Below are positions 5,718-26,664 of a stretch of 52,065 nucleotides of DNA, one piece after another. Position 1 is the first letter of the stretch; every line of letters begins with the position of its first letter. Position numbers and translations under genes: made by a program. The DNA is from an uncultured Bacilli bacterium (GTDB lineage: Bacteria > Bacillota_I > Bacilli_A > RFN20 > CAG-826): assembly GCA_944336335.1 (NCBI GenBank), contig CALVLC010000082.1, positions 1 to 52,065 of the forward strand, in the 5' to 3' direction. The notes under the pieces were generated by a model. The model was not told where the DNA came from, made no database searches, and worked only from the letters and a program-made list of their open reading frames with translations.

Positions 5718-5746
5718 AAAAAAAGAACCGGTATGAAACCGATTCT
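5718..5746 (-). terminator. Rho-independent terminator after the 5746-6432 gene
   Basis: On the minus strand AGAATCGGT pairs with ACCGGTTCT (one mismatch) and is followed by TTTTTTT. It separates the tagged unknown gene from the VirD4 gene. Confidence 0.8.
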
Positions 5747-6432
5747 TAACGTTCAATATCCTTAGATTTTGTATTTTCTTGTGTTTTCTTAATATTCTTT
5801 TCAGCAACTTCAATTTTTCTATCTATGCTTTCAACAGCAATATTATTGTAATCCTTATCTGTTAAATCGTGTATTCTACTTTTTTCATTAATTAAGTCAG
5901 TAATTTTATCTATATCTTTTTTATAAGCTACTATTGCAAATCCATCACCATAATAAATTGATGTAAAATTAAATCTGTCTTCTTTTGCCATATTCTTTAC
6001 ATCTTCCCTAAACAGATTTATTTCATCAACTGTTTTAAATCCTTCTACTACAATCAATGGTTCATCATTCGCAACATTCATAAATTCAGTAGGATTAAGT
6101 TCCATATCTAAGGAATTATATTTACAATTATTAGCACATCTTTGTGCAACATCTAAATCACTATCCCTAAATAATACATAATCCTTTCCTTCATTTTGAA
6201 ACCTGATACATAAAAGCCCTTCTTTATCAGCAAGATCCATAAATTCATCATTAGCTGGAAACGTTAGGAAATTCCCTTTATGTTCCTTAAATACATTAAC
6301 AACACTTTTTTCTTGGTCAGTCTTAGATTCTTTTTCAAATAGTTTTATCAAAGCTGCTAATATTCTTGAAACAAAATCCATTGAAGTATTAACCATAGTC
6401 ATTGAACTATCATATGCTACTTTATTTTCCAT
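5746..6432 (-). CDS. Unknown cytosolic protein with shared C-terminal SLDxKL...IER tail
   Basis: 228 residues, starting at the ATG at 6432 after AAGGTGATTGAT. No signal peptide, no membrane span and no domain I recognise. The middle (FKTVDEINLFREDVKNM...FTSIYYGDGFAIVAYKKD) looks like a compact alpha/beta fold. The last 27 residues, beginning SIDRKIEVAEKN and ending KSKDIER, match the tails of at least four other proteins in this window (16372, 18658, 24844 and 25372), one of which is ArdC-like. Being placed immediately upstream of the VirD4 gene, it is a candidate transferred or T4SS-associated protein. That role is inference; the shared tail is seen directly. Confidence 0.8.
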   Translation of the reverse strand: MENKVAYDSSMTMVNTSMDFVSRILAALIKLFEKESKTDQEKSVVNVFKEHKGNFLTFPANDEFMDLADKEGLLCIRFQNEGKDYVLFRDSDLDVAQRCANNCKYNSLDMELNPTEFMNVANDEPLIVVEGFKTVDEINLFREDVKNMAKEDRFNFTSIYYGDGFAIVAYKKDIDKITDLINEKSRIHDLTDKDYNNIAVESIDRKIEVAEKNIKKTQENTKSKDIER

Positions 6433-6442
6433 ATCAATCACC

Positions 6443-6730
6443 TTATTCTATCACATCAAATTTAATATAGCTTTTTGGACTAATAATAATGCGATAAATC
6501 GGATCATCAGTACTATTTGGATAAAACCTTGATAGAACTTTAATTACATCAAAAATATCCTTTTTAATCTTTGACATACCAAATTCTTTTAAGTCTGATA
6601 CCCTACCTAAGAAATATCTTAAATTATTGTCTTCATCTACCTGAACAACCGTTTCATACTTATTCCCAGGTATCTTAAATCCAATTCTATATAATTCATT
6701 ACCTAAAAATTTAATACAAATATTTTCCAT
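6443..6730 (-). CDS. Small unknown protein upstream of the T4SS block
   Basis: 95 residues from the ATG at 6730 (start chosen over an in-frame ATG/GTG inside the ribosome site). It is soluble, rich in aromatic and basic residues, with the pattern ENICIKFLGNELYRIGFKIP at the N-terminus. The gene ends 10 bases before the next one starts, so the two are probably co-translated. No family recognised. It resembles in general character the other short unknowns at 46061-46300 and 21162-21635, but I cannot claim homology. Confidence 0.65.
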   Translation of the reverse strand: MENICIKFLGNELYRIGFKIPGNKYETVVQVDEDNNLRYFLGRVSDLKEFGMSKIKKDIFDVIKVLSRFYPNSTDDPIYRIIISPKSYIKFDVIE

Positions 6731-6823
6731 ATAAATCACCATTCCATTATTAAATTATATTTACATTCTTTTAATCACCCTATTCTTCCTAAGTTCTTCT
6801 AATTAAACAAATCAATTTTGTAC

Positions 6824-7169
6824 TTATACTTCATCTGCAGGAATCTTAACACAATTGTCGATTCCTTCTAATTTAAAATATACATAATCTTTATCAATCA
6901 GAATAGTATTATTTGAATAATTATTTTCTATTGCTTCTTTTTGCAAATCATTATTATTAGAAAAAAAGTATAGTACAGACACTATGTCCATAAAGTAATA
7001 TAGTAGCACCAAATATACAAAGAACAGCGGCTAGGATATTTGAATAGGCCGATTCTTTTTTATATGTTTCATCAAACATAATATAAGAAATTATGTCAAA
7101 AAATGTTAATAAAATAAATACTACCGTCATAACAACTAATATATAAAAAAATATTTTAATAACATTCAT
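6824..7169 (-). pseudogene. Frameshifted paralogue of the 7191-7508 membrane protein
   Basis: The frame starting at 7169 (MNVIKIFFYILVV) runs through two membrane spans and stops at 6957. A second frame covering 7012-6824 continues with SVLYFFSNNNDLQ and ends KLEGIDNCVKIPADEV. Joined, they match the neighbour at 7191-7508 end to end, including its ending ELEGIDSYVKIPVDEL. The frames meet at a run of seven T (minus strand, CTTTTTTTC, about 6962-6970), where one base too many breaks the gene. It could be a dead copy, a homopolymer sequencing error, or slippage-corrected expression. Confidence 0.75.
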
Positions 7170-7190
7170 AAAATGACCATCTTTTTATAT

Positions 7191-7508
7191 TTAATTTTGT
7201 AATTGCAGTTCGTCAACAGGAATCTTAACATAACTGTCGATTCCTTCTAATTCAAAGTAGTAATAACCATCTTTATAAAACGAATCTTCAACGACAATTT
7301 CATTATAGTTTGAATCCAAAATAGACTTTTTATTATCTATAATAGAAAAAGCAGTTAAAATCAAACTAATAATAATACCAATAAAGAAAGCATAATTTAA
7401 ATAATGTGTGCGGAAATTATTTTTCACATCAATAATAGCGCTAATACCTATAGCCATTATAAATAGTACTAATAATCCATATCCTATAACATAACGTATT
7501 ACATCCAT
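7191..7508 (-). CDS. Small two-span membrane protein, function unknown
   Basis: 105 residues with two hydrophobic helices (about 5-27 and 40-58), then a soluble tail with the repeated-looking pattern FYKDGYYYFELEGIDSYVKIPVDEL. An intact paralogue of the broken gene just downstream. It starts at 7508, with the element's recurrent promoter motif 30 bases upstream (7538-7557). No known family. The tail might face the outside and bind a ligand, but nothing in the sequence proves it. Confidence 0.7.
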   Translation of the reverse strand: MDVIRYVIGYGLLVLFIMAIGISAIIDVKNNFRTHYLNYAFFIGIIISLILTAFSIIDNKKSILDSNYNEIVVEDSFYKDGYYYFELEGIDSYVKIPVDELQLQN

Positions 7509-7537
7509 AACATAAACATCCTTTATTTATATTTTTT

Positions 7538-7557
7538 CTACTTATATTATGTCAGAA
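7538..7557 (-). promoter_or_regulatory. Recurrent element promoter motif, upstream of 7508
   Basis: The minus strand reads TTCTGACATAATATAAGTAG, matching the element-wide motif TTCTTACATAATATTATTAG. No TTGACA-like -35 is visible at the usual distance. Confidence 0.6.
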
Positions 7558-7593
7558 GCACTACCCTAATAATTGAAAAATATGGTTTTTGAC

Positions 7594-7626
7594 AAAAAAA
7601 TAACTGCCGTAAAAATACGACAGTTA
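7594..7626 (-). terminator. Rho-independent terminator of the LRR protein gene
   Basis: On the minus strand AACTGTCGTA pairs with TACGGCAGTT (one wobble) followed by ATTTTTTT, just after the stop at 7644. Confidence 0.85.
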
Positions 7627-7643
7627 AATAATATACATTTTAA

Positions 7644-9758
7644 TTAAGATATTTTTGTAAGTGTTTGTCCTACTGCTGGAATTTTACTTATATAACTACC
7701 ATGGAAATCATCTGGATTTGTAGATTGCCATTCAGATTTATTACGAAGTATTTGATTAATCCATAATGTGTTTTCATTATTTGGTAATGTTATTGTATTT
7801 AATGAATCAGATAAACAATTAAGATTTGTTAAATTTTCTAAGTTTGATAAATCTAATTCTTTAATTTGATTATTTCCACACGTTAAATTTGTAATATTAG
7901 GATTATTACTTACATCTAATTCTATTAAATTACAATTAGAACAGCTTAATGTTTCTAATAATGTATTTTCCTTAATATCTAATTCTACTAATTCATTTCC
8001 GTGGCAATTCAAATTTTTTAATTTAGTATTTTTACTTACATCTAATTCTGTTATATTATTTTCATAACAGTTTAATGTTATAAGTTCAGCACAATTTGAT
8101 AAATCTAAATCTTTTATATTATTTCCATTACAAGTTAAACTATATAAACTTTCTTTATTCGATAAATCTAATTCTGTTAAATTGCAATCATAACAATTCA
8201 ATGTTGTTAATTTAGAACAACTTAAAATATTTAATGAAGATAAATTAGTATTTCTATAACAATTTAAATTTATTAATTCTTTGTTATTAGATAAGTCTAA
8301 TTCTGTTATATTATTTCCATTACAAGTTAATTCTTTAAGATTTTCAAAATATCCTATACCTGTTAAATCACTTATACCCTTGCTACTTAAATTATTTATT
8401 GTTTCAACAGCTAATCTTTCCGGATCACATAATTGATTATCTTTATTGGTATCTATATTATCTAATACATATTGTCTAAAAACTTCGTCTGGAAAATGTT
8501 CTTCATCTATAGGAATACATTGTACATCAGGCTTTAAAGTAATAGTCTGTCCATTAGCACTTGTACCTTCATTAACATCATTTTCACCGTCTGTCCAAGT
8601 AGCATCACCAAAATCTTTTAATAAATCATTTACATTAACACTATCACTTACAGGTAATTTAATTTCAGTAATATTAGAATCAGAACCAACACTTAAATCT
8701 TTAATATTAGTATTATTAGAAAGATCAAGTGAAGTCATACCAGTATTGCCAGTAATATTTAATGAAGTAAGTTTATCATTATTACTTAAATATATTTCAG
8801 TAAGATTATTATTCTTAACTTCTAATACTTCAAGATTAGTAAGATCATCTACTACTACTTCATTTAATCCCATATCATTTGCAATAACTTCTGTAATATC
8901 AGCAGCTTCATTTACATTAAGTGAATTTTCTTGATTTGTAATAACTAATTTATCACTTAATTTATCTGCACCTTTAAAACTATCATTTACAGAAGCAGAA
9001 GGTGTATAAGATTCTTGTTTTTCATCTACACTAATTTTTCCATCTTCATTAACATCAAATTCTACTGCATCTGCCATAATTACCGAACTAGGAAAGTTTG
9101 TACTATTAATTTCATATCCATCTGTTTCAGGAATATCGATTTCTTCATCATCACCAGGTTCACCAATTACAGTATCAATTAATTCAGCCCAATCAGAATC
9201 TTCGGTATTTCTATGCTGTTTTGCATATACAGTATAATTAACAACTACATTATCATCCTGGAAAGCATTTTTACTGTCTATATCAAATGTAAAAACAAAT
9301 GACTGATCAGAAGAAGTACCGTTTGCTTCAGGTTCGGTTTCGATAGTACCATTAATTACAACAGGATCAACTTCATAATTAATAGTTTTGCCGTCTTCTG
9401 AAAATGTAGGTTCTTTTGTTATTCCTTCGCCGGATAATGTATATTCAGGATCTTCTTGATTAAGAATATTGTCAGAAGTGATACCAATTAATGTTTTTGC
9501 GTCAATAGATTTAGAACCAATATTTTCAATCGTATATGCCAAAGTTCCTGTATCACCAGGGTTTAGAATACCATCACCATCTGAATCTAAATTCGACTTA
9601 TCTGTTAATTGAATATCAACAGTACCGGCAGTTGCCCTTACAGTTTTACTTTCTACATCAGTGAAGAACGCACTTGCTAATATAGCACTTGCACCTATTG
9701 CTAATATAGAAATACCAGCAATCACCTTTTTGTTTTTAAAAACATTTTTTAAATTCAT
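7644..9758 (-). CDS. Secreted LRR protein with SipW/TasA-type signal region and Ca-binding motifs
   Basis: 704 residues. The N-terminus (NKKVIAGISILAIGASAILA, then FFTDVESKT) resembles the signal region of SipW-processed TasA/camelysin proteins, and an acidic DSDGDGILNPGD loop follows. A beta-sandwich-like region leads to an EF-hand-like loop (DVNEDGKISVDE, about residue 235). A first set of short leucine-rich repeats covers about 295-385, a second calcium-like loop is DTNKDNQLCDPE (about 440), and a second run of about ten 21-residue repeats has the form LxxLxCxxNxLTELDLSNNxx. There is no sorting motif or C-terminal membrane span, so it is secreted or matrix-associated. The FPDxxFR-EF-hand-LRR module recurs in the protein at 50644. 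A role in adhesion is plausible inference. Confidence 0.85.
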   Translation of the reverse strand: MNLKNVFKNKKVIAGISILAIGASAILASAFFTDVESKTVRATAGTVDIQLTDKSNLDSDGDGILNPGDTGTLAYTIENIGSKSIDAKTLIGITSDNILNQEDPEYTLSGEGITKEPTFSEDGKTINYEVDPVVINGTIETEPEANGTSSDQSFVFTFDIDSKNAFQDDNVVVNYTVYAKQHRNTEDSDWAELIDTVIGEPGDDEEIDIPETDGYEINSTNFPSSVIMADAVEFDVNEDGKISVDEKQESYTPSASVNDSFKGADKLSDKLVITNQENSLNVNEAADITEVIANDMGLNEVVVDDLTNLEVLEVKNNNLTEIYLSNNDKLTSLNITGNTGMTSLDLSNNTNIKDLSVGSDSNITEIKLPVSDSVNVNDLLKDFGDATWTDGENDVNEGTSANGQTITLKPDVQCIPIDEEHFPDEVFRQYVLDNIDTNKDNQLCDPERLAVETINNLSSKGISDLTGIGYFENLKELTCNGNNITELDLSNNKELINLNCYRNTNLSSLNILSCSKLTTLNCYDCNLTELDLSNKESLYSLTCNGNNIKDLDLSNCAELITLNCYENNITELDVSKNTKLKNLNCHGNELVELDIKENTLLETLSCSNCNLIELDVSNNPNITNLTCGNNQIKELDLSNLENLTNLNCLSDSLNTITLPNNENTLWINQILRNKSEWQSTNPDDFHGSYISKIPAVGQTLTKIS

Positions 9759-9839
9759 AAATTTTTTACCACCTTTTTAATAAAGTGAAGTAATCATTAC
9801 TTCTGTTACATACATAATATCAACAAATTATTTTTGTTT

Positions 9840-9859
9840 TCAAATATATTATGATAGAA
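9840..9859 (-). promoter_or_regulatory. Recurrent element promoter motif, upstream of the LRR gene
   Basis: The minus strand has TTTCTATCATAATATATTTG, about 85 bases before the start at 9758. It matches the motif found ahead of the transglutaminase-like genes. A T-run (CCTTTTTTG) lies about 15-20 bases upstream of CATAAT, as at other copies. Confidence 0.55.
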
Positions 9860-9915
9860 ACGATCACAAAAAAGGCTTATTTTATAAATTTTATAGTAAA
9901 AAATCGATTCTAATG

Positions 9916-9936
9916 TTAATTATAATATTACTAGAA
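9916..9936 (+). promoter_or_regulatory. Possible plus-strand promoter for the coiled-coil gene at 10032
   Basis: The sequence TTATAATATTACTAG is close to the second half of the element motif, with a perfect TATAAT. It lies about 100 bases ahead of the 10032 start. No other good promoter is visible in this gap. Confidence 0.4.
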
Positions 9937-10031
9937 CAAAAAATTTTAAATTAATTTCTATTTTTAGATTGACTGTAGTAATTAAATGTGTTATTTTTAA
10001 ATCAGAAAAATTTTTAGAAAGGACTGATATT

Positions 10032-10361
10032 ATGAAACTTGATACTGCTGAAAAAATCCAGAAGAAATTAGATTCTACATTAGCAAAAATCGAAACAACA
10101 AAACAGACATTAGCAGATCTTGAAAAAGAAGCAAAAGATCTGCAGGAAAAATTAGAAACTGCTAAATTAAATGATGTAGTTTCCGGCCTGGAAAGGAAAG
10201 GATTAAGCATTTCTGATTTTGAAAATTGGCTTAACACACACGAAGATGTTGTAGTTGAAGAAGCACCTAAGAAACGCCGTGGCAGAAGAAAAAAATCTGA
10301 AATTGAAGCCGAAGCCGCTGCTGAAGCTGAAAACACAACAGAAACAGAATCACAGGAATAA
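10032..10361 (+). CDS. Small coiled-coil protein with basic-then-acidic tail
   Basis: 109 residues from the ATG at 10032, with AAAGGA 11 bases upstream; longer readings lack a ribosome site. Residues 1-50 form a heptad-rich coiled coil (LDTAEKIQKKLDSTLAKIET and onward). A short alpha region follows (GLSISDFENWLNTHE), then a basic patch KKRRGRRKK and an alanine/glutamate-rich tail. The basic patch could bind nucleic acid. GC content and codon choice look slightly higher than in the neighbours, as expected for a well-expressed gene. A small accessory or nucleoid-type role is possible, but no family is recognised. Confidence 0.75.
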   Translation: MKLDTAEKIQKKLDSTLAKIETTKQTLADLEKEAKDLQEKLETAKLNDVVSGLERKGLSISDFENWLNTHEDVVVEEAPKKRRGRRKKSEIEAEAAAEAENTTETESQE

Positions 10362-10402
10362 TAAAAAAGGGCTTATGAAAATTTCATAGGCCCTTTTTTA
10401 TT
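10360..10402. terminator. Bidirectional terminator between convergent genes
   Basis: GGGCTTATGAAA pairs with TTTCATAGGCCC, flanked by A-runs on the left and TTTTTT on the right. It serves the plus gene ending at 10361 and the minus gene ending at 10432. Confidence 0.8.
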
Positions 10403-10431
10403 ATTGTTTTTAATATTTAGAATATTATGAA

Positions 10432-11400
10432 TTATGAAGGTATAAGCGTATCGCAAATATGTTTAAAGAAATTTGTTATAAAATTAATATATGAAAAAGA
10501 ACCAGTTCCATATTCATCTTCCCATTTATATATTGTACTGTTCAGTAATATATCATCTATATTAAAAGGTATGACAGAATTAGTAAAATATGTATTTTTT
10601 ATATAGAACGTTGTATCTATTATTTCAAGTAAATCATCTGGACAAGTTATACTATATACTTCTTTATTAGTTGTTTTATCTTCATATTCAGTTATACACA
10701 CTAATTTGGGTTCAGGACTAATTTTTAAATATTTATCAAAATCTATTCTATTAAAATAAGCCATAAAATAATCATATCCAAATTGAAAATATGATCTTTC
10801 TTTTGTTATACTACTATGCTTGCTATAAATTTGCTTTATTATAAACTTATTTAAATCAACTTCATTATTAAAACAAGCGATTTGATTATCTTCATCACAG
10901 TTTAACAGCAGTTTATCATTTACAACAGGAATATATTTGCCATCACATACAATAGTATAATTGTTTCGCTTTAAAAAACCAATTTTTAAATAAAATTCAT
11001 AGAAATTAGATTTTGAAAAGCAATCACCTATATTGATTGAAAAAGAAGTTTCACAATCTTTTATCTTTTTATATAAAAGTCTTAAAGTAGGAAAAGAAAC
11101 TAAAGATAAATGTCTGTTTCTAGTGCCAGAAATTGGTTTTGATATAAAATCTGATTCAAATAATCGTCTAAAATCGTAATATGATATTACAGATTTGTTC
11201 TTTAATAAAAATTCCGCTGAATCATCAACTTCAATCCCGGTTTCCGCTTCAAATACTAAAGATTTATCTTTAGATGAAGAACATAGAATATTAAAACTTA
11301 ATGCAAATCCCTTCCGTGGTCTTGTTAAATCGTGTGTTTTATTTCCTGTCATTTTAGTATCTTCAATATCTAAAATATAAAAATTGAATTTTTTAGCCAT
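10432..11400 (-). CDS. Unknown protein, paralogue A of a tandem pair
   Basis: 322 residues, soluble. It is clearly homologous along its length to the next gene (11498-12451). The shared N-terminus has the form xLDIEDTxxTGNKxxDLTRxRKGF, then SSxxDKxLxF, and later the common strings YFMAYFNRIDF and PFNIDDILLN. The first 40 residues, with conserved LDIEDT and basic DLTRPRKGF, look like a catalytic or ligand-binding core, but I recognise no family. The upstream region is duplicated together with the gene. It starts at 11400 after GAAAGGGCG. The gene pair lies between the surface genes and the recombinase module. Confidence 0.75.
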   Translation of the reverse strand: MAKKFNFYILDIEDTKMTGNKTHDLTRPRKGFALSFNILCSSSKDKSLVFEAETGIEVDDSAEFLLKNKSVISYYDFRRLFESDFISKPISGTRNRHLSLVSFPTLRLLYKKIKDCETSFSINIGDCFSKSNFYEFYLKIGFLKRNNYTIVCDGKYIPVVNDKLLLNCDEDNQIACFNNEVDLNKFIIKQIYSKHSSITKERSYFQFGYDYFMAYFNRIDFDKYLKISPEPKLVCITEYEDKTTNKEVYSITCPDDLLEIIDTTFYIKNTYFTNSVIPFNIDDILLNSTIYKWEDEYGTGSFSYINFITNFFKHICDTLIPS

Positions 11401-11423
11401 TGTATCGCCCTTTCAAATAACTA

Positions 11424-13532: not shown

Positions 13533-15842
13533 ATGCTGACAGATAAAGATTGGGAAAAAGCTATAGACTGGGCTAAAAGAAATGCTGGTAAATCCACAAT
13601 GATGTATGAATACTTAAAAGACGCCAACGGAAAATATACTTTAAATCCAGAAGGTGAACGTATTCAAATTCAAGTAACGAAAGATAACAAGCCTATTTTT
13701 TGTAATGATGAAGGTGAACAATTAATAATGCACTTTTTCCGTGAAAAAGTATTAGATCCAAAAGAATTAGGTTCATTAATACTTGTTAAGGTAGGAAAAT
13801 ATCAGTATTACAGAATCAAAAAGGTAGTTCAATTAAATAACGGTGATAAAAAAGAAATTAAAGTCCAGGATAAAAATTTAGCAAAAACTTTATCAAATAT
13901 GCAAAATACAATTCGTGCCTATCAAAATCAAACTTACGTAGGCGATACTGTATTTTCACCTGATGATACCTTATATGATGCTTGTTTAAAATGGTATTCA
14001 CATTATTCTAAAGTAAAAAAATGTAAAAATAGTACAATAACAAATTTTAGCAGTAAAATTGGTATTCTTGAACGTGAAGAATTAAATCAATACAGTAAAA
14101 TGCCTATTAAAAACTTTACATATAAAGATTTCCAGGCATTAGGCGATCTGTTACAAAGGGTTCCAAGATTAATTGTTGGAAAAGGTAAAACTAGAATAGT
14201 TGGAACAGAAACATATGCCGAATCAACTATCGCTTTATTATGGTGGTGTATAAGAAGAACATATCAATATTTACGTGAAAATTTTCCAGGGTATTCAGAT
14301 ATTTTTGAAAATGTAGAAGCACCTTATGATACAGAATGGAAAAAGAAATTTAAGCGGTATAATGTATTTGATGAAATTTCAATGTTAATTTTTGAAAAAG
14401 TCGCAACTGCTACTTATGGAAATGGAATACCCTATTTTAAACACGGTGAAGCCCTTGTATTTTTAATGTATTCCGGTTTAAGAAAAGGCGAATTTGCAGG
14501 CTTAACAAAAAAGGACTTCACAAAATTTAATGATAATACAGGCAAAATAAGAATTAATAAACAGATTAAAAATGATCCAGAAATAAGATTTGACGAAAAT
14601 GGTTTGCCAATTACAACGCCAAACGGAAAGCCCAAAAAATTCACAAAAATGGTGTTATCACCAGGCTTGAAAACGTTAGGGTCAGAACGAACAGTTTCAT
14701 TAGGAACAGAAGCAACCTTAATAGCAAACAAGAAATTAAATCAAAGTAAAACAGATAAAAATGATTTCTTATTTAAGCCATTTTACCGGCACGAAGATGC
14801 AGAAAAACAATTAAATTTTGAAATTGATCAAAGATTACTTCCAGAATACAAATGCCTTAAAGGTAAATTATTTCTTGATCCGCAGCACTTAAATAAAACT
14901 TTGGAATCAATATTAAAAAATTGTATTAAGCACCCAACATTTAATAAATATAATGATTTCAATCCAGAAACATTTACTGTTCACGATCTGCGACATACTG
15001 GAATTTCACACGCACTTAGAATGGGTATGGCTATTCAAGATGTTGCACTATGGGCCGGACATAATGATCTAAGTACAACTATGACTTATTACAACCAAAT
15101 TGTAGCACAGCAAAAAGAACACGCTAAATTATTATCATCTTCTACCACTACAATAGATCGTTCAGAAGTCAGGAATGTTGATTTAATGTTTGAAATAAAC
15201 GGTGTAGTAAGACATTATGATAACAGAAATGGATTAATTGATCCTAAAGACTTTGAAGAAATGTTAAATGGTTTTGTAGAATTACAGAAAGATAAAACTT
15301 TTCTACGTGGCACACCAGGCAAACCGGCTAATGACACTTTAAACCTTCATTCTGCAAAGAATTTGCCTTTAAAACATACAAAAGTAATGTTTCCAGCAAA
15401 AGGTGATTTTACTATTGAATACAGTGAACTTAAATCAAATAATACATTAACACAAGTTTTTGGAATAGAATCTTTGCTTCGTATATGTGATAATATGATA
15501 AAATTACATAAAATCAATTTTACTACAGAAGAAATATATAAATATATCCTATCTAATGTAGATGAAGTAGATGATATGAAAAAGGTTTTATTCGTAGAAT
15601 TTATTACAAACAGACCAGACGCATATAAAGAAATGTTGAATCTGGAATATGCTGGAATACAAACAGCAGAATTTACAGAAGCTACTAAAAAAATTTATCT
15701 TGAAGATTGGGAAACTAACAAAAAAAGATATATTGTAAAAATCTTAAAAGTTTTTGTTGAAAAAGGTAATGCTTGTGAAGACGATGCAGAAAAATTATTA
15801 CTATTAAAAATCATAGGCAATATAGAACAATTGAAAATTTAA
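13533..15842 (+). CDS. Tyrosine recombinase/integrase with long C-terminal extension
   Basis: 769 residues. Catalytic signatures are visible: first arginine in YSGLRKGEFAGL (about residue 313), HDLRHTGISHAL (about 487), WAGHNDLSTTMTYY with the nucleophile tyrosine about residue 525. An N-terminal region of about 130 residues resembles arm-binding domains, followed by a core-binding SAM-like region (residues 150-260). Typical integrases end shortly after the catalytic tyrosine; this one carries about 240 extra residues, with no recognised domain, rich in lysine and glutamate. It probably integrates and excises the element. The candidate attachment sequence follows 170 bases downstream. Confidence 0.92.
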   Translation: MLTDKDWEKAIDWAKRNAGKSTMMYEYLKDANGKYTLNPEGERIQIQVTKDNKPIFCNDEGEQLIMHFFREKVLDPKELGSLILVKVGKYQYYRIKKVVQLNNGDKKEIKVQDKNLAKTLSNMQNTIRAYQNQTYVGDTVFSPDDTLYDACLKWYSHYSKVKKCKNSTITNFSSKIGILEREELNQYSKMPIKNFTYKDFQALGDLLQRVPRLIVGKGKTRIVGTETYAESTIALLWWCIRRTYQYLRENFPGYSDIFENVEAPYDTEWKKKFKRYNVFDEISMLIFEKVATATYGNGIPYFKHGEALVFLMYSGLRKGEFAGLTKKDFTKFNDNTGKIRINKQIKNDPEIRFDENGLPITTPNGKPKKFTKMVLSPGLKTLGSERTVSLGTEATLIANKKLNQSKTDKNDFLFKPFYRHEDAEKQLNFEIDQRLLPEYKCLKGKLFLDPQHLNKTLESILKNCIKHPTFNKYNDFNPETFTVHDLRHTGISHALRMGMAIQDVALWAGHNDLSTTMTYYNQIVAQQKEHAKLLSSSTTTIDRSEVRNVDLMFEINGVVRHYDNRNGLIDPKDFEEMLNGFVELQKDKTFLRGTPGKPANDTLNLHSAKNLPLKHTKVMFPAKGDFTIEYSELKSNNTLTQVFGIESLLRICDNMIKLHKINFTTEEIYKYILSNVDEVDDMKKVLFVEFITNRPDAYKEMLNLEYAGIQTAEFTEATKKIYLEDWETNKKRYIVKILKVFVEKGNACEDDAEKLLLLKIIGNIEQLKI

Positions 15843-16371: not shown

Positions 16372-17568
16372 TTACTTTTCATAAATAATATCTGATCTAT
16401 TTTTGCTTTTTGTAATATTATTTTTTGCAAAATTCAGTTTATCATCTAAAGACTGTTCATAATTGTCAACTTCCATAATAGATAAATCAGGGTTATCTTT
16501 TATAGCTGCTTCAATACAATCTTGTCTGGTAAAGTTGTCATCATATTCATAAATCTTAAAATTATCCACATATGATTGATATTGTTTACTAAAATAATTA
16601 TCTAACAATTCTTTAACTTTTTCATTATCTTTTGGAATTATGATAGCCTTTGCTTCTATAAGATTAATAGCCCTATTAGGCTTTGCTTCTAAATATGATA
16701 CAGGTAAATCGTGTACTTCTTTCGCTAATTCTTTAATGCATTTTATATCATCATCATTAATATCGTAGTCTTTAAAAATCTTATAAATCGTAGACTTACT
16801 TGAATTAATCCTAACCTTATTTAAATCCTTTCCTACTAAATGGCTATATTCATTACCTTTATACTTACATTTTAAATCATTACATAAATCTTTAAATTTT
16901 TGTTCGCAATTTTTATATAATTCATCTGCCGAATCTTTACTTACAATCCTATCAATATCAATTTCAGAAAACAAAAACAATCTTTTACTTAAAAGTGCTT
17001 TCCAAGAATTCATAGTAGAAAAGCCATTAGTTTGTTCTTTTCCTTTTCCAGCTTTCATAGCTTTATGAATCGTATTTAAATTATAATCTTCTGTTATAGA
17101 ATCAAAATTTTTAACTTCACCAGGCTTTTTTAAAATATCATTTGTCTTTTTAATACCTTTTTTAGAAATACATTCATTAAGTCGTTCTGAAACATAATCA
17201 TATTTAGAACTATCAAAATTGGAATAAACAATATGTCTAACTGTTTCACCGAAGTCATATTGGCCTATATTATCAATTTCATACTGACTAAAATTTGTTC
17301 CAAGAACTTCATTAATTTTATCTGCATCAAACTTATATAATATTTTAGGAAACCTAGCAGAATAAGCATCGGCTTCATAAATTAAATTATCACTATTTTG
17401 TTCTGGATCAACACTACACTTATTAAATAAAAAACTTATTTCACCAAATTCATTATAATCAAAATCAGAATTAGTAATTGCTATTGAAGGCGCAGGCCAA
17501 CCGCCTAAATCTAACACCTTACTTAAATTTGATATTTTTTCATTATGTACTGCAATTAAATTACCCAT
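16372..17568 (-). CDS. Polyvalent-type ICE protein with shared C-terminal tail
   Basis: 398 residues, start 17568 after AAGGCGG. The N-terminus (VHNEKISNLSKVLDLGGWPA, then PSIAITNSDF and FGEISFLF) resembles, from memory, the opening domain seen in large multi-domain 'polyvalent' proteins of Firmicutes conjugative elements. The rest is alpha-rich and unrecognised. The tail, starting SLDDKLNFAKNNITK and ending DIIYEK, belongs to the group shared with the ArdC-like neighbour and others here. It lacks membrane features. Two copies of the element promoter motif lie upstream. A role in protecting or establishing transferred DNA is inferred from the company it keeps. Confidence 0.72.
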   Translation of the reverse strand: MGNLIAVHNEKISNLSKVLDLGGWPAPSIAITNSDFDYNEFGEISFLFNKCSVDPEQNSDNLIYEADAYSARFPKILYKFDADKINEVLGTNFSQYEIDNIGQYDFGETVRHIVYSNFDSSKYDYVSERLNECISKKGIKKTNDILKKPGEVKNFDSITEDYNLNTIHKAMKAGKGKEQTNGFSTMNSWKALLSKRLFLFSEIDIDRIVSKDSADELYKNCEQKFKDLCNDLKCKYKGNEYSHLVGKDLNKVRINSSKSTIYKIFKDYDINDDDIKCIKELAKEVHDLPVSYLEAKPNRAINLIEAKAIIIPKDNEKVKELLDNYFSKQYQSYVDNFKIYEYDDNFTRQDCIEAAIKDNPDLSIMEVDNYEQSLDDKLNFAKNNITKSKNRSDIIYEK

Positions 17569-18657: not shown

Positions 18658-19596
18658 TTATTTTTCTATTTCATTATATTTTTGTTTATTATTATGTTGA
18701 ATTTTTGAAGCCACAATATTTAATTTTTTATCAAGTGAATTATTAAATTCTAAACCTTTAATTTGTTCAAGTTTACTGTCAATTTTATTAATTAAGTTAT
18801 CAGAAACCGACTTAATAACTTCCATATTTTCCTTTAATGTTTTAGTGTCATTTCCGTGTGTCCAACCAGCAACATACTTAAATGTATAATCAGAAGTATC
18901 TAAATTTAAATGATCACAAACAATAAAAGCGATTGATTCAGCACGCACTTCTTTTGTGCTTCGATCTGCCTTACTATATTCAGAAGCAGGATTATCTACG
19001 ATAGAATGTGCTATTTCGTGAACCATAGTTTTTAGTGTTTGTGTTTCCGGCAAATCGTTTTGTATTTTAATTTCATTAGTAAAAGGCATATAATAACCAT
19101 TTGGGCCATTTAAATTAGCATATGAAATAGGAACATCACTTATTTCAATAAGAATATCTTTTAATGTGTCATAATTATTAACATTAGCAGTTAGTAATTC
19201 AGGTTTAAATTCAGGTAATTCCTTACCGTGTGTTTGTGATACATCGAAAACATAAGCCTTTTTAAAATTCAGAAAAGTATGTTCTTCTGTTTCTGATACA
19301 GATTCACCATCTACAATTTTTTCAACTTCAATTTGTTTTTTATAAGGTGTAGGGCTTATAATCATAATGCCCTTTTCATTCTTATTAATAAAACGACCTA
19401 ATTGTTTCCATTTCGTAAAGCCAGCGACTTGTGTTGCATCTGGTTTTTGTAAATATATTAGCAACTGATTATTTAAACTATAATTATGAAATTTAGAACA
19501 AAAAGAAAGCCAATTTTTGTATTCATAACTATCCAAAGCCTTTTGAACACCCTGTTCTAATTTTTCTGTTATTTCTTTATACAATTTTTTATCCAT
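18658..19596 (-). CDS. ArdC-like antirestriction protein (ssDNA-binding domain plus zincin)
   Basis: 312 residues. The N-terminal domain (about 1-125: NNQLLIYLQKPDATQVAGFTKWKQLGR region) matches the ArdC/TraC-type ssDNA-binding fold, and the second domain has the zinc metallopeptidase motif HEIAHS (about residue 193) with a downstream glutamate-rich helix RAESIAFIVCDHL. ArdC proteins protect incoming plasmid DNA from type I restriction, and relatives are carried with the DNA into the recipient. The last 26 residues, beginning SLDKKLNIVASKI and ending YNEIEK, are the tail shared with several unrelated proteins in this element. That makes this gene the functional anchor for the translocation-tag idea. 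Confidence 0.85.
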   Translation of the reverse strand: MDKKLYKEITEKLEQGVQKALDSYEYKNWLSFCSKFHNYSLNNQLLIYLQKPDATQVAGFTKWKQLGRFINKNEKGIMIISPTPYKKQIEVEKIVDGESVSETEEHTFLNFKKAYVFDVSQTHGKELPEFKPELLTANVNNYDTLKDILIEISDVPISYANLNGPNGYYMPFTNEIKIQNDLPETQTLKTMVHEIAHSIVDNPASEYSKADRSTKEVRAESIAFIVCDHLNLDTSDYTFKYVAGWTHGNDTKTLKENMEVIKSVSDNLINKIDSKLEQIKGLEFNNSLDKKLNIVASKIQHNNKQKYNEIEK

Positions 19597-21152: not shown

Positions 21153-21161
21153 TTAATTATA

Positions 21162-21635
21162 TTAAGCCTTATAAACAAAATTATCAATAGAATCATCTAT
21201 ATGATCATAATTAGTAAAAAATCTTAAATCCTTACATCCCATATTTTTATAATCACAAAATCTTATATAATCATCAGAAACTAGTTTTTGTTCTTCATTT
21301 AATTGTTGTAATAGTGTATAAAGTATATGTTCAACTGAAAAATATTTTATATCATCAGATTTAGAATAACCTATAGCCTTTAAGAATGAATTAAAATGTC
21401 TACCTGGACTTTTATTTTCTTCAATAGACACTTCTTTAACCAAAGAAAAATTGAATTCTGTTAATTTATATATAGAATAATGCCTAAATTTATCGTTTGA
21501 ATAAAATTCAACAAATGTATTATCAGGAAATTTTAGTCCAACCATTATAGATCTTCTACTTATACTAAATTGTGGATCTTTTGCATTAAAATCAAATTTT
21601 GGCAATACAGAAGTAAAATTATCTAAAGTTTTCAC
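21162..21635 (-). CDS. Unknown small soluble protein
   Basis: 157 residues with a GTG start at 21635 and AAGGG nine to thirteen bases upstream. No signal peptide or membrane span. The N-terminal half is beta-rich (SISRRSIMVGLKFPDNTFVE). A helix-rich middle (SVEHILYTLLQQLNEEQKL) follows and the C-terminus is acidic. No family recognised. It faces away from the XRE regulator gene and may be its target: the shared intergenic region has overlapping divergent promoters. Confidence 0.65.
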   Translation of the reverse strand: MKTLDNFTSVLPKFDFNAKDPQFSISRRSIMVGLKFPDNTFVEFYSNDKFRHYSIYKLTEFNFSLVKEVSIEENKSPGRHFNSFLKAIGYSKSDDIKYFSVEHILYTLLQQLNEEQKLVSDDYIRFCDYKNMGCKDLRFFTNYDHIDDSIDNFVYKA

Positions 21636-21657
21636 CTAAACACACCCTTCTTATTCA

Positions 21658-21702
21658 ATGATATTGACTTGTATAACTTCACTAATATAAGTGTATCAAA
21701 TA
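21658..21702. promoter_or_regulatory. Overlapping divergent promoters with dyad between 21635 and the XRE gene
   Basis: On the plus strand TTGACT, 16 bases, TATAAG; on the minus strand TTGATA, 17 bases, TTATAC. Both occupy the same 35 bases. The sequence is an imperfect palindrome (ACTTGTATAA ... TTATATTAGT-like arms), as expected for an operator of the adjacent regulator. A second plus promoter (TTGCAA, 17 bases, TATATA) lies at about 21761-21789. Confidence 0.45.
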
Positions 21703-21793
21703 GTAATATTTTGTCAATAATAATGCGTATGTTTTTACACGTAAATTTCGACACGCACAATTTTGCAACTTCATTTATGCAGCTATATATAGT

Positions 21794-22048
21794 ATGATCA
21801 GGCTAAAGAAGGATGTGATACCATTGTATAGGCTAAAACACGGCAAGATTATGATCAAACTAGATCGGCTTCTTCCAGAAAAAGGTATATCTAAGTCAAA
21901 ATTTGCACAGTATGCAGAATTACAACGAACACAACTAAATCGTTATATTAATAATGATGTAGAAATGATTAGTCTTGATGTTCTAGCCCGTATGTGTGCA
22001 GTTTTAGAATGTGATATTTCCGATATATTAGAATATGTTGAAGATTAA
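21794..22048 (+). CDS. XRE-family helix-turn-helix regulator
   Basis: The frame gives up to 84 residues. The helix-turn-helix is clear: LLPEKGISKSKFAQYAELQR, TQLNRYINND, then LDVLARMCAVLECDISDILE, the classic Cro/CI-like end. The start is uncertain. The ATG at 21794 has no ribosome site and would sit at the transcription start. TTG at 21824 follows AAGAAGG, and ATG at 21851 gives the usual short XRE form beginning MIKLDRLLPEKG. Its stop abuts the stop of the convergent gene ending at 22049. Likely a local repressor. Confidence 0.85.
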   Translation: MIRLKKDVIPLYRLKHGKIMIKLDRLLPEKGISKSKFAQYAELQRTQLNRYINNDVEMISLDVLARMCAVLECDISDILEYVED

Positions 22049-22402
22049 TTACCAGTTAGCATAGTTTTCTGATTCAATACCATCTATATTAGTATTGTTT
22101 TCAATAAGTTTATTTTTATCAGGATTTATAATATTTAAATCAGTTTCGTCTAAAATGATATTAAATTTATTTGCTGACTTCTGAATATCATTAATATAGT
22201 TTTTACGGTAATCTTTAATAAGTTTTTCCAGTTCACTTAATTCAACCTGTAAGTGAACTTTTTTATTGCCACGAATCAAATCAATATAGCATTCTGTCGA
22301 ATCCGAATCATAAATATAATTCATTCCTTCAACCAGTTTAAGTTTTTTATTTATATCTTGAAGCGCATTTAACTGTAAATCTGTTTTAATTATTTTAGCC
22401 AT
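22049..22402 (-). CDS. Unknown small protein convergent with the XRE gene
   Basis: 117 residues from the ATG at 22402 (GAAAGGAA upstream). Soluble, with heptad-like helices in the middle (LQVELSELEKLIKDYRKNY) and an acidic asparagine-rich tail ending ENYANW. The two convergent genes meet with no spacer and no terminator, so the messages may overlap at their 3' ends. No family recognised. Confidence 0.6.
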   Translation of the reverse strand: MAKIIKTDLQLNALQDINKKLKLVEGMNYIYDSDSTECYIDLIRGNKKVHLQVELSELEKLIKDYRKNYINDIQKSANKFNIILDETDLNIINPDKNKLIENNTNIDGIESENYANW

Positions 22403-22741
22403 ATAAATCAAATTCCTTTCATAAAATTATTACTTGAATAATATTATTCTAAAATTATATATGTTTGTGTATAATTATACACTATTATAAATCTATATTA
22501 AGACAAATTTTAATATAATCCATATCTTTATAAAAAAGTTATTTAAAATGTTATGATTCATAATAACCAGACTATGTTGCTTCTTCTATTATAAAAGTTC
22601 ATTCAATGAAGCGATAGCGAATTGAATGATATATTAAATACTATAATATTGAAGTAAATTATAAATAATTAATACCTAAATCAAGCCAGGTATTAATTCT
22701 TCAGTATTAAAATACAGCAAACGTTAAATTCTTTAGTATTT

Positions 22742-22911
22742 GTATTAAGCCAGTTAATTATATATTTCATCTTCTGTATTAAGCCAAGTAGTTATGTATT
22801 TTAATATTTTTATCTAGCCAAGTAGTAATGTAATTTATCTTCTATATCAAGCCAATTAGTTATATAGTTCTATATCTGTATTAAGCTAATTAGTTATTAT
22901 ATATATCTATA
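22742..22911. repeat. Five tandem degenerate 34-bp repeats
   Basis: The AAGCC-type core recurs at 22747, 22781, 22815, 22849 and 22883, exactly 34 bases apart each time. The unit is like GTATTAAGCCAAGTAGTTAT followed by an AT-rich half ending in TCTTCT. Units differ by substitutions but never by length. A looser copy lies at 22683. Candidates are protein-binding iterons (origin or partition site). No replication or partition gene is visible beside them. Confidence 0.75.
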
Positions 22912-23117
22912 TGTATTATATATAGTATTGTAAACATTTTATTATAATTTCATTATGTTAAGTTATTATTTTTTGTATTGTACTGACTTCCTGCATAATT
23001 GCCCTTAGCCAATTTAAAAATAGACTACTGCAAATAATTTTTGCTTCATTAAATATGAATTCTTATATGACACTTCTTAATATCTGTATTTGATATTTAC
23101 TGTTTTTCAAATCATAT

Positions 23118-23648
23118 AAAAAAAGCGGCGTTATTTCGTCCTGCCGCACATCCATTACTGGAATCATAAGTATGCCCTTCTTACACGCTAGAAATATAAG
23201 ACCGAAACTAAAACCATCCTTCTGCTTTTAATCACATAAAACCCATCACTGGTTATTGCTTTATGCCGAACAATGAAGATCTTTCATTGGAACTGTCAGG
23301 CTAAAACATAACTGCCTTAGACACGGGTATCAGAACTTTACCCAGAACTTAAGTCATATAAGATTTTGTACTGGTTATGTACAGTAAGGAATCAAAGTCT
23401 TATAAAACTTAGCAGCGGCTTGTTTTAATGGTGCTGACCCACAATTTACATTTTATACTGGAACGGGACCCAGATAGACCCGATCTTATCTAGCATAATA
23501 GATCGGTGCCACTTCTATGATTTGCATAGACACAATCAACTGATCATCCATTTGTGTGTAAGTACCGTTGACGCCTTACAACCACTATTTAATTGTAGAA
23601 TATGTGAAGAACATTCCTAATTCTTTTAATCACATATATTAATTGCTT
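23118..23648 (-). ncRNA. Large structured noncoding RNA (about 530 nt), possibly ROOL-like
   Basis: An island clearly richer in G and C than its surroundings, without reading frames. On the minus strand it begins after a CATAATAT promoter motif and ends in a strong terminator (GCGGC...GCCGC then seven T, 23118-23147). Many helices can be read: ATATGTGA/TCACATAT (23600-23637), CCGATCT/AGATCGG (23480-23506), TATAAGA/TCTTATA (23357-23404) enclosing TGTAC/GTACA, GGGTA/TACCC, and CAATGAA/TTCATTG (23271-23289). A 14-base direct repeat TATGTGATTAAAAG occurs near both ends. Length, ornateness and a mobile-element home recall the ROOL/GOLLD class, but I cannot confirm family membership by eye. Confidence 0.7.
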
Positions 23649-23667
23649 CGTATATATTATGACAGAT
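23648..23667 (-). promoter_or_regulatory. Recurrent element promoter motif of the large RNA
   Basis: The minus strand has GATCTGTCATAATATATACG, placing the probable RNA start near 23648. Confidence 0.6.
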
Positions 23668-23827
23668 CACTTTTAAAATAACTTAAAAAAATCACTTTTT
23701 TAAAAATATTTTTTAATCCACTTCATATATCATTATCGATCATTTTTTTGTATTTGTAATTCATATATAATATCTGTTATAAAAGTTAAAATGTAATATG
23801 GTTTTTATTTCAATAAATAAAAAAGGC

Positions 23828-23951
23828 ATATTCATATAGAATGAACATATTTTATCTGAATTTCAATTCTATATTTTAGACATATAAATTATTGCTTAAC
23901 ACTATTAAATTCAAAACAGCACTAAAATATATTCATTTAGAATGTACATAT
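23828..23951. repeat. Two copies of a 23-base dyad upstream of the large RNA
   Basis: ATATTCATATAGAATGAACA at 23828 onward and ATATTCATTTAGAATGTACA at 23929 onward, both continuing TAT, are nearly identical and roughly palindromic, 101 bases apart. A related dyad (ACATTACGAATGAATGT) is near 23990. Possible regulator-binding sites. Confidence 0.4.
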
Positions 23952-24091
23952 ATAATTAATCATTACTATTACTTCTGCTAAAACATACATTACGAATGAA
24001 TGTTTTTTAGCCAAATTCCAGTTTTTAGTTATTAAGTAATATAAATTATCCCTTATACAATAAAAGTATAAATTTAAAGGAAAAACACACA

Positions 24092-24116
24092 AAAAAAGAT
24101 CAGGTTAAACCTGATC
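24092..24116 (-). terminator. Terminator of the 24105-24752 gene
   Basis: The minus strand pairs GATCAGG with CCTGATC around a five-base loop, followed by TTTTTTT; it overlaps the last codons. Confidence 0.85.
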
Positions 24117-24752
24117 ATCATTATTCAAGTCTTTCTTAGGTTTATATATTTTAAAATAATAAATAGCGCCTAATATTCCAAATGGTAAAGTAAAAATCAA
24201 ATTTGCTTTGATAATATCTAACACTGAATTTTTTAATGTATCGCCAACTGTATTTTGGTTATTCAAATCTTCACTAGTTTCTACCTGAATATCGTTTCCA
24301 CCATCTTCAATAACTGAAGGTGTTGCTACTTCTGATTCTTCTATTAAACTTTCACCGGAATAATAAATATCTAAACTTGCAGCCTTTCCATTTCCTAAAC
24401 TAAAACTATTTACTGAAGTACTTAATGGAAAATCACCAAGATTATCACCGGCAGCCATTACTACGTCAACAGTATAAGCACCTGCAGGTAACGTTTCCCT
24501 GGCAACATACCCATTCTGCCTATAACAATAAACAGTGTAGAAATCACCCACAGTCTGATTATACACTTCTATAACGACATTATACCCAGGCCAACCTTCA
24601 GGTTCTTTAAAAGTTATTACAGCAGTTCCAGACCCAAGGCCAGGATCAGCGACAACAGTTTCTTCTACTTCTGCCGTTGAAGCAAATGTAGGTATAGTAA
24701 TACAAAAAATCATAAACAATGATATTAATATCTTTTTAAATCTATTTATCAT
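24105..24752 (-). CDS. Secreted protein anchored by a C-terminal membrane span
   Basis: 215 residues from the ATG at 24752. Signal peptide about residues 1-25 (ILISLFMIFCITIPTFAS). A beta-sandwich-like domain of about 100 residues follows (GTAVITFKEPEGWPGYNVVI, later LPAGAYTVDVVMAAGD), resembling carboxypeptidase-regulatory or Cna-B-type folds in general look. Then come an acidic linker containing EVATPSV and a C-terminal span (LIFTLPFGILGAIYYF) with basic KPKKD inside. So it is held on the outer face of the membrane. The ATPS string links it to other surface proteins of the element. Exact family unknown. Confidence 0.75.
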   Translation of the reverse strand: MINRFKKILISLFMIFCITIPTFASTAEVEETVVADPGLGSGTAVITFKEPEGWPGYNVVIEVYNQTVGDFYTVYCYRQNGYVARETLPAGAYTVDVVMAAGDNLGDFPLSTSVNSFSLGNGKAASLDIYYSGESLIEESEVATPSVIEDGGNDIQVETSEDLNNQNTVGDTLKNSVLDIIKANLIFTLPFGILGAIYYFKIYKPKKDLNNDDQV

Positions 24753-24820
24753 AATCATCACCTATTTCAAAAATAATTTCTTTAGGTAATATCAAATAGA
24801 ATTTAATTTATGTAATAAAA

Positions 24821-24845
24821 AAGGCCGGTATTAAACCGATCCTTT
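24821..24845 (-). terminator. Terminator of the 24844-26664 operon
   Basis: The minus strand pairs GGATCGGT with ACCGGCC (imperfect), followed by TTTTTT. Confidence 0.75.
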
Positions 24846-25353
24846 ATCTTTCTATTTCGTTAGCTTTGTCATTACCCTTTTGAATAGCTTTATCAGCAAC
24901 CGAAAGTTTTTCGTCTAATGATTGACATTCGGCTTCAAGTATTGGCCCATTACAATAAACCTGACCGTCAGTTTTACCTTCATAAACTATTTCATTAAAG
25001 ACAAAATCTTTAGCGTCTTCTGACAGTTCAGTAAATTTTGCTTTCCTATTATTTTCAGCACCAGCTTCTTGAACAATTAAATCTACATTGAAATCGTAGT
25101 TTAAGTGTCCCTTACTTCCATCATAAGTAAAATTACTATTTATATTTCCATCGTTATATATAAAATCAATTAGGTAATTTTTTGTTTTATCGTTCAAACA
25201 ATCAAAAGGAATGTTTCCTTCCCTACGTGAATTGTCAATATCTTCCATTGTAATTTTACTAGAATCGAAAAAGTTTTTAAAATCTTCTTCTGACATAGGC
25301 CCATAAAAATTTATATTCATAGAACCCTGTCCATACCAACCAACTGTATTCAT
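24844..25353 (-). CDS. Unknown soluble protein with shared C-terminal tail
   Basis: 169 residues, start 25353 after AAAGGTAGG, 18 bases past the stop of the upstream gene, so one operon with it. The body has no known domain: glycine-poor beta elements (GSMNINFYGPMSEEDFKNFF) and an acidic middle. The final 25 residues begin SLDEKLSVADKAIQKG and end KANEIER, almost the same as the tail of its operon partner (SLDSKLSVAENNITK, ending DITIER). The two bodies are unrelated by eye, which argues that the tail is a portable signal rather than a trace of whole-gene duplication. Confidence 0.75.
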   Translation of the reverse strand: MNTVGWYGQGSMNINFYGPMSEEDFKNFFDSSKITMEDIDNSRREGNIPFDCLNDKTKNYLIDFIYNDGNINSNFTYDGSKGHLNYDFNVDLIVQEAGAENNRKAKFTELSEDAKDFVFNEIVYEGKTDGQVYCNGPILEAECQSLDEKLSVADKAIQKGNDKANEIER

Positions 25354-25371
25354 ATTTGTACCTACCTTTAA

Positions 25372-26664
25372 TTATCTTTCAATAGTAATATCTTTTGATT
25401 TAGAACATTTTGTTATATTATTTTCAGCCACACTTAATTTGCTATCTAGTGATTCACTTTGTTCTAATTCCAAATTAATTTCTTTAACATATTTATCAAA
25501 GTCCTGTTCTGATAATTTTAAATTATATATATCTGGTGTAATTAAATGACGATTACCAACAATCATACAATCAGAATTAGTACTATTTTCATTTACTATA
25601 CTTGGTGTAGAAATTTCAATCATCTGATCACTTTCTTTCAAGTCAAAAAATACCTTGACAGTGTATCTATCAAACATATCACGATTAACGATATTATTTA
25701 AATCTATACCTAATTTTTCAAAAACCAATTTTTCATTATCAGTCTTATTAATCAAATCTTGAATAGTATATTGTTTATAAGTATTTTTATCGTAAATAGT
25801 ATTTCTTCTAAAACTAACAGATTTAATACTATCTAAATTTATATTACTGTCAAATAATTCCTTAAATAATTTTTGGCTATTAGAATTAGCAATCACATTA
25901 GATGATATTCCATAACCAGAAGTAAGCATAGCACGAAACTGATCTGTATTAACTGGAAAAGAAATAGATTTAATAGTGCCGTATTGACTAACACCTTCAT
26001 AATAAATTTGTACCGTCTTCTTTCCTTCCATTGATTTATACAAATCTTGTTTCATTTTTAATGGTGTAGGCATATTAGCTTTAAACTGATCATAAACAGC
26101 TTTTGAATTAACCCAAGCAGCATAACAACCCAGCCAAGTATTATTCTTTTCATCGACCTTACTATTTACATAATCATTAACCATCTGTTCTGGATTTTGT
26201 AAATAGTCAACTACAGATTTTGCTTTAAAGTCAATATTATGTATAAAATAATTTGGCTTTTCTAATTCTTCATCTTTAATAATTAATTTTTCTGCATTAA
26301 ACACATCATAATGTGTGATAGGGCCTGTAGGCAATCCTTCAAAGTGTTCTGTTATCTTATCACAAACTTTATCTAATATTTCATTAGATACATCATTAAA
26401 GGATTTTACATACCTTTCATCTAATTGAAAATCACTTATATAACCAAATTTATAATCCAAATACAAAAGGTCATTTTCTTTATCTAACAGTCCCTTAAAA
26501 TTTAAATCATTAGAAATATGTCCATAACCATGTCCTACTTCATAAAGAACCTGGAATCTATCATTCAATTCAACAGCACATTGTTTATTAATTCTTCCAC
26601 GGACATCTTCAATATCAAAATAACCACCTTTCTTAATTAAATCAAAATATTTTTGTGTATCCAT
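25372..26664 (-). CDS. Unknown protein with shared C-terminal tail, paralogous to 26837-27676
   Basis: 430 residues, start 26664 after AGGTGATTAA. The N-terminal 150 residues are unrecognised. The middle resembles the neighbouring 279-residue protein: xxPxxLKxxxxLYxxxEGxKTxxIxY, then a stretch ending in the form DxIKxxxxxxNTIYxxx. The C-terminus ends in the shared tail (SLDSKLSVAENNITK...DITIER). It has no membrane features. In its operon it precedes the 169-residue tagged protein. Its untagged paralogue next door offers a natural comparison for what the tail adds. Confidence 0.72.
   Translation of the reverse strand: MDTQKYFDLIKKGGYFDIEDVRGRINKQCAVELNDRFQVLYEVGHGYGHISNDLNFKGLLDKENDLLYLDYKFGYISDFQLDERYVKSFNDVSNEILDKVCDKITEHFEGLPTGPITHYDVFNAEKLIIKDEELEKPNYFIHNIDFKAKSVVDYLQNPEQMVNDYVNSKVDEKNNTWLGCYAAWVNSKAVYDQFKANMPTPLKMKQDLYKSMEGKKTVQIYYEGVSQYGTIKSISFPVNTDQFRAMLTSGYGISSNVIANSNSQKLFKELFDSNINLDSIKSVSFRRNTIYDKNTYKQYTIQDLINKTDNEKLVFEKLGIDLNNIVNRDMFDRYTVKVFFDLKESDQMIEISTPSIVNENSTNSDCMIVGNRHLITPDIYNLKLSEQDFDKYVKEINLELEQSESLDSKLSVAENNITKCSKSKDITIER

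Follow-up and report, generated by a model that had tools for sequence, protein, structure and literature searches.

Why do five otherwise unrelated proteins of one conjugative element end in the same short C-terminal tail? The question is raised by the window, the stretch of 52,065 nucleotides analysed here, which is the whole contig (CALVLC010000082.1, assembly GCA_944336335.1, from an uncultured Bacilli bacterium) of a Bacillota-type conjugative element. An earlier note on this DNA had proposed that the tail directs its carriers through VirD4, the coupling protein of a type IV secretion system (T4SS), into the recipient. Four observations were computed directly: the tail is shared, it is confined to conjugative elements, it recurs in element-specific form on proteins useful in a recipient, and it is absent from structural T4SS proteins. 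Judged from these comparisons, the tail is probably an export signal, C-terminal and portable, that serves the conjugative T4SS of the element itself.

A common tail on five unrelated proteins

The tail comprises the last 25–27 residues of five proteins, named here by their first coordinate, and has the form S-[LI]-D-x-K-[LI]-x-x-[AV]-x3-I…E-[RK]. All tails are encoded on the minus strand, at 5749..5829 (protein 5746, SIDRKIEVAEKNIKKTQENTKSKDIER), 16375..16452 (protein 16372, SLDDKLNFAKNNITKSKNRSDIIYEK), 18661..18738 (protein 18658, SLDKKLNIVASKIQHNNKQKYNEIEK), 24847..24921 (protein 24844, SLDEKLSVADKAIQKGNDKANEIER) and 25375..25452 (protein 25372, SLDSKLSVAENNITKCSKSKDITIER). In their alignment, S1, D3, K5, I13 and the penultimate E were invariant. 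A profile built from the five rows was searched in six frames against the assembly (E ≤ 10). It matched exactly the five known sites in the whole 2.0 Mb, which is more than a chance resemblance. The five minus-strand open reading frames (ORFs) and their endings are thus as the earlier note described them. Among 224 family genomes, other matches of the profile were found only at E 0.01–0.07, internal or out of frame, and they were fewer than expected by chance at that threshold. C-terminal pair scores were 42–69 in the window, and chromosomal controls reached 45 in 1 of 5038 pairs. The bodies ahead of the tails, called unrelated by eye in the earlier note, were unrelated by sequence as well, no pair falling below E 0.5 in BLASTP.

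At the DNA level, 20–26 of 39 nucleotides of the tails were identical, and about half of the shared residues differed in codon; the serine is encoded by AGC in 5746 and by TCN in the other four. A repeat scan of the 12.7–30.5 kb region detected no repeat family at the four tail sites inside it, and the tail DNA is not a repeat. Since the codons of the shared residues have diverged, selection acting on the protein sequence of the tail would be the simplest reading. K, E and N, residues favoured by AT-rich DNA, are abundant in the tails, which would suit a chance or low-complexity resemblance; functionless copies of one DNA segment could likewise be imagined. Such origins are extremely unlikely, being contradicted by the whole-genome uniqueness, the diverged codons, the lack of a DNA repeat at the scanned tails, and the position and reversal controls given below.

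Tails in other elements with a CD1115-type VirD4

The coupling protein of the element (VirD4-like, 3443..5665, minus strand) belongs to the CD1115/PcfC VirD4 family, with 465.5 bits against NF045973, above the curated cut-off of 250. VirD4 alignment scans gave 80 named genome loci and 34 loci from a viral contig collection, and about 120 CD1115-VirD4 loci were compared; gene calls were mechanical, and curated tails were picked by eye. In these elements, unrelated proteins of one element likewise have common C-terminal tails, in a version private to each element and usually with the layout S-[ILV]-x3-[LI]-x2-φ-x3-[AV]. Tails are frequent on PcfB (DUF3801), a family whose gene stands directly upstream of the CD1115 virD4 and which often ends in a PS[IV]xxxL tail. 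PcfB was found in 90 cases, often with the C-terminus KPS[IV]RKxL…KEKA…R-[EG]x[LR].

A profile made only from PcfB tails was searched against the other element proteins, and at a threshold of at least 8 bits it gave 21 C-terminal matches. In the controls, a single N-terminus and a single internal segment matched, along with 2 reversed C-termini and none of 608 chromosomal proteins. An unbiased comparison of pairs within loci, excluding pairs with body homology, pointed the same way: scores of at least 50 were reached by 35 of 28677 C-terminal pairs (an upper limit, some reflecting other common ends such as LPXTG anchors), 6 of 28677 N-terminal pairs and 0 of 14920 internal pairs.

Whole-genome profiles (E < 0.01) were built from the local tails of Ohessyouella, Ructibacterium and a Clostridia metagenome-assembled genome. 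The matches were in-element in 5 of 5, 5 of 5 (two elements) and 4 of 4 cases, respectively, and all 14 lay inside CD1115-type elements. Several were outside the loci used for profile building, among them an ArdA, a DUF3849/DUF4316 protein and a DUF3846 protein. Together with the window's five, 19 of 19 matches in four whole genomes thus fell into conjugative elements, rather than mainly into chromosomal genes without a T4SS.

Five newly fetched plasmids, out of sample, were examined after the idea was formed, by comparing the PcfB tail with the C-termini of all ORFs. The top partner was a zeta toxin in Paenibacillus urinalis (on a plasmid related to one already in the earlier set), an ArdC in the lactococcal pIL6 and a Toprim protein in L. 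formosensis; in a Priestia plasmid, it was a small hypothetical protein, matching weakly. Cutibacterium pTZC1 had no clear C-terminal match to PcfB among all its ORFs. Its relaxase and AbiEii nucleotidyltransferase (L215:3551-5257 and 7094-7870) share LxERIExEVxRRRxxRGD (score 61, shuffle p < 0.001). The ArdC of a Thermoanaerobacterium plasmid stretch, where no CD1115 VirD4 or T4SS is annotated, ends without an extension.

A tag that controls degradation or stability through a host protease would also be short, C-terminal and flexible, and it would agree with the preferred last residue: 88% of the distinct PcfB C-termini, and 17% of controls, end in L or R. However, proteases are host-encoded and read general signals, and the tail varies by element and is confined to conjugative elements, making this explanation very unlikely.

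Proteins that carry the tail

The tail motif was present in 53 of 95 PcfB, 5 of 6 ArdA, 4 of 17 ArdC, 4 of 27 relaxases and 2 of 14 primases, and in 10 of 628 chromosomal controls; it was derived from these same data, so that the contrast between classes is informative and the PcfB rate itself is not. On structural T4SS proteins it was found in 0 of 395 (VirB4 0/75, VirB6 0/85, VirD4 0/126, PrgK 0/52, PrgI 0/57). By Pfam, the bodies of the carriers were ArdA, ArdC, Toprim primase, AbiEii, zeta toxin and large polyvalent proteins (LPD1, LPD34, LPD18/LPD25), as well as DUF3849, DUF3560, SpoVG, DUF5688, DUF6674 and DUF3846. Outside PcfB, the carriers are protein kinds useful to DNA in a recipient. 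In other CD1115-VirD4 elements, similar tails are thus seen on antirestriction proteins (ArdA and ArdC), primase and toxins, and now and then on the relaxase.

The private character of each version is visible in single elements. In L. paracasei pW56, PcfB has TLQEKIEKAK, ArdC has TLDQKIERAK and a primase-like protein has TLDKKIAAAK. The PcfB and ArdC tails of E. faecium are SLTKKLDKLEDKA and SLSDQLEEFDDKA, and in Paenibacillus, SLEDRRQQIKPLV on the protein in PcfB position is accompanied by TLSEKLEQIKPLM on a zeta toxin. Ohessyouella has five tail carriers. The zeta-toxin family proteins of Paenibacillus plasmids (L206:27559-28215, L210:24042-24704) bear a PcfB-type tail, which suggests that these plasmids may send a toxin or kinase to recipients. 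Two other candidates were rejected: a relaxase-wide signal, most relaxases being without the tail, and identity of the tail with DUF4316, which in locus L047 sits about 60 residues before the C-terminus.

The tail could instead be a docking tag: within the donor, it would bring proteins of the element to the relaxosome or to the complex of VirD4 and PcfB, where they would act, with no export. The frequent tail on PcfB, which stands beside VirD4 and is probably machinery, and the tails on some relaxases fit such a role. Yet ArdA and ArdC, among the commonest carriers, have no obvious work in the donor, and structural T4SS parts are never tailed; we consider donor-side docking unlikely.

Four of the window's carriers, all on the minus strand, are as follows. 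Protein 18658 (18658..19596) is ArdC-like, as the earlier note had stated, with an ArdcN domain (E 8.1e-12) and an HEXXH zincin motif (HEIAH). It also matches phrog_7245 (anti-restriction, E 1.1e-17), and its plasmid homologues align mostly to residues 7–281 of 312, ahead of the tail. Protein 16372 (16372..17568) combines an N-terminal PBECR5 part (residues 3–88; PF18814, E 6.4e-24, covering profile positions 15–100 of 239) with a segment (residues 120–325) that is similar to a portion of a phage protein family 3513 residues long (phrog_22978, E 5.6e-23). Searches of Pfam, NCBIfam and PHROG gave no match for protein 24844 (24844..25353, 169 aa) and no significant family match for protein 25372 (25372..26664, 430 aa). 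The latter has a body paralogue at 26837..27676 (minus strand; 23% identity, E 5e-8). Only 25372 has the tail, and the two are a natural pair for comparing a tailed with a tail-less body.

The PcfB-like protein and the structure of the tail

The fifth carrier, 5746 (5746..6432, minus strand), lies immediately upstream of virD4, in the PcfB place of CD1115 elements. It was listed from a GTG at 6441, which is probably part of the ribosome-binding site, the ATG at 6432 being the more likely start. The same holds for the ORFs opening with VIDM, VIIM, VVYM or VVNM, 5746–6441 included: the listed GTG is probably in the ribosome-binding site, and the likely true start is the ATG three codons downstream. 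In contrast to its position, the sequence of 5746 does not connect it to PcfB: it is larger, it had no PcfB/DUF3801 match in Pfam, and an hhalign comparison with PcfB was not significant (probability about 0.15%). A single-sequence model of low confidence (mean pLDDT 42) had the order helix-strand-helix-strand-strand-helix followed by a tail helix (206–225), and this order agrees with that of a better-quality PcfB model. Because of its position beside virD4 and its predicted topology, 5746 is probably the PcfB of this element and not free-standing cargo; it may thus belong to the machinery while also bearing a tail.

In the predicted PcfB model, the tail is a separate helix (128–142) after the folded domain, followed by a flexible end. 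The hydrophobic motif positions 1, 5, 8 and 12 would be compatible with one helix face. The PcfB tails of other elements had a mean charge of +3.6 over the last 20 residues. A Foldseek search with the PcfB model returned weak KH-like matches only (best E 0.08).

This very weak KH-like resemblance, and the occurrence of one tail form on PcfB and other proteins of an element, would fit a tag for homotypic assembly of PcfB with tailed proteins, for example in chaperoning or DNA coating, without recognition by VirD4. In L121 and L103, however, the non-PcfB tails are closer to each other than to their own PcfB tail, and the nearest partner of a tail is thus not necessarily PcfB. A PcfB-specific tag is therefore improbable.

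A possible export pathway and its weak points

If the tail is an export signal, it would probably consist of a linker, a short amphipathic helix and then an end that is charged and flexible. We infer that VirD4 or PcfB reads the tail, and that the tagged proteins are translocated and have roles in the recipient. The CD1115-type VirD4, suggested as reader by the pathway, would recognise the tail, perhaps with the adjacently encoded PcfB-like 5746, and the recognised protein would be loaded for transfer with or beside the DNA. PcfB may help in recognition, or it may be one of the cargo proteins. Once in the recipient, the ArdC-like protein would shield the single-stranded DNA that enters against restriction, whereas other host functions would be the targets of the PBECR5 protein and of the two proteins without family (24844 and 25372). 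Transfer during conjugation is known for ArdC of pSa and for the TraC1 primase of RP4 (PMC5512222).

Several points weigh against export. The window relaxase (30474..33104) had no match to the tail profile, and most other relaxases also lack the tail, so it is not a general signal for the DNA substrate. That PcfB has a tail would be expected of a docking tag no less than of an export signal. By eye, the window tail fits the layout of the other elements, yet their tail profile is not significant on it; for this reason, no common descent of the window tail and the other tails is claimed. A rank test of the tails within their own elements (median rank fraction 0.13; 8 of 34 first of 84) was biased, its cargo having been partly picked by similarity. 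Finally, the earlier note had compared the charged tail with known T4SS signals. The window tails are charged, but the net charge of those counted by hand is about −1 to +2; they are near neutral, not basic, and lack the net positive charge of the Agrobacterium type. The proposal of a T4SS translocation tag therefore stands in part: confinement to conjugative elements and similar tails on the cargo of CD1115-VirD4 elements speak for it, and the machinery-like 5746 and the tail-less window relaxase do not.

If the tail is a signal, the antirestriction proteins, primases and toxins that each element injects could be revealed by sequence alone, with a bearing on the ability of some elements to evade restriction when they enter new hosts and on how specificity between co-resident elements is kept. 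For 24844 and 25372, the tail provides a testable role. A broader proposal, to which we give slightly less than an even chance, is that a C-terminal address tag, private to each element, is used by many CD1115/PcfC-type elements in Bacillota and by some in Actinomycetota to export their own cargo via their own VirD4, with tag divergence blocking cross-export between co-resident elements. If this is true, the proteins exported in Gram-positive conjugation could be catalogued from sequence by means of tag profiles.

Gene content of the surrounding element

The gene order VirD4-small membrane protein-VirB6-PrgI matches that of CD1115 elements such as loci L048 and L049. On the minus strand, virD4 is followed downstream by a small, pilin-like membrane protein in VirB2 position (3004..3354; T4SS_pilin E 0.004, below cut-off, and gene order), a VirB6-like membrane protein (1987..2928; no family match, assigned by gene order only) and a PrgI family protein (1542..1949; PF12666, E 2.4e-12). 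The plus strand encodes the tail-less relaxase, of MobA/VirD2 type (PF03432, E 1e-20), a probable MobC-like relaxosome accessory protein directly upstream of it (30071..30472) and the tyrosine recombinase of the element (13533..15842; PF00589, E 6e-11). A long ORF-poor stretch (22439–24104), with four AT-rich repeats spaced by 34 bp at 22732–22897, is a possible site for oriT, for iterons or for a regulatory RNA.

A type I restriction-modification set and two DNA methyltransferases (36278–42281 and 28574–30062) are also on the element, none of them tailed. Secreted proteins with transglutaminase-like cores (one by Pfam, the others by eye) are encoded at 34450–36165, 42414–43193 and 49764–50573, near a Cna_B protein (45337–46059), in the cargo half of the element. 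A leucine-rich-repeat surface protein (7644–9758) has an N-terminus resembling, by eye, TasA/SipW-type matrix proteins.

Close VirD4 relatives, at about 45%, were found in only 2 of the 224 family genomes, and the genome bin carrying the window (contig C82) is larger than most of its genus mates. This could mean that the element is recent or that the contig was mis-binned. Single-protein scans of the viral contig collection with the window ArdC and VirD4 found no relatives.

Comparison with known systems

A literature search excluding subscription papers and preprints found no signal by which Gram-positive conjugation chooses protein cargo; within the same scope, PcfB/DUF3801 was given no function. 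A 2019 review of Gram-positive conjugation contains no reference to secretion or translocation signals. Gram-negative systems are known to use C-terminal T4SS signals (PMC10025392; PMC11288057).

The substrate signals of VirB/D4 systems (VirF, VirE2, MobA) are likewise short, C-terminal and portable, and are recruited via the VirD4 coupling protein; in Agrobacterium, 19–50 C-terminal residues suffice for delivery (PMC10025392). They differ in being described as positively charged clusters, whereas the window tail is near neutral with an S-[ILV]-x3-[LI] start, is element-specific and belongs to a Gram-positive-type T4SS. The XVIPCD of the Xanthomonas X-T4SS is also a C-terminal module common to otherwise unrelated effectors, and it is bound by VirD4. 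However, it is a conserved domain of about 120 residues, unrelated in sequence to the tails described here, which have 25–40 residues (25–27 in the window).

The conjutome of the F plasmid and pED208 likewise involves conjugative export of protective proteins, some by C-terminal signals; these systems are Gram-negative, and the available parts of the two reports describe no common tail (PMC11288057, PMC8406263). In their bodies, the tail carriers correspond to the polyvalent proteins of conjugative elements (Iyer et al. 2017), which contain the same ArdC-N, PBECR and LPD domains, are predicted to travel with DNA, and for which ArdC-N was suggested as a header domain (PMC5512222). A secretion signal or common tail was not found in that paper; here, single-domain carriers share a C-terminal tail.

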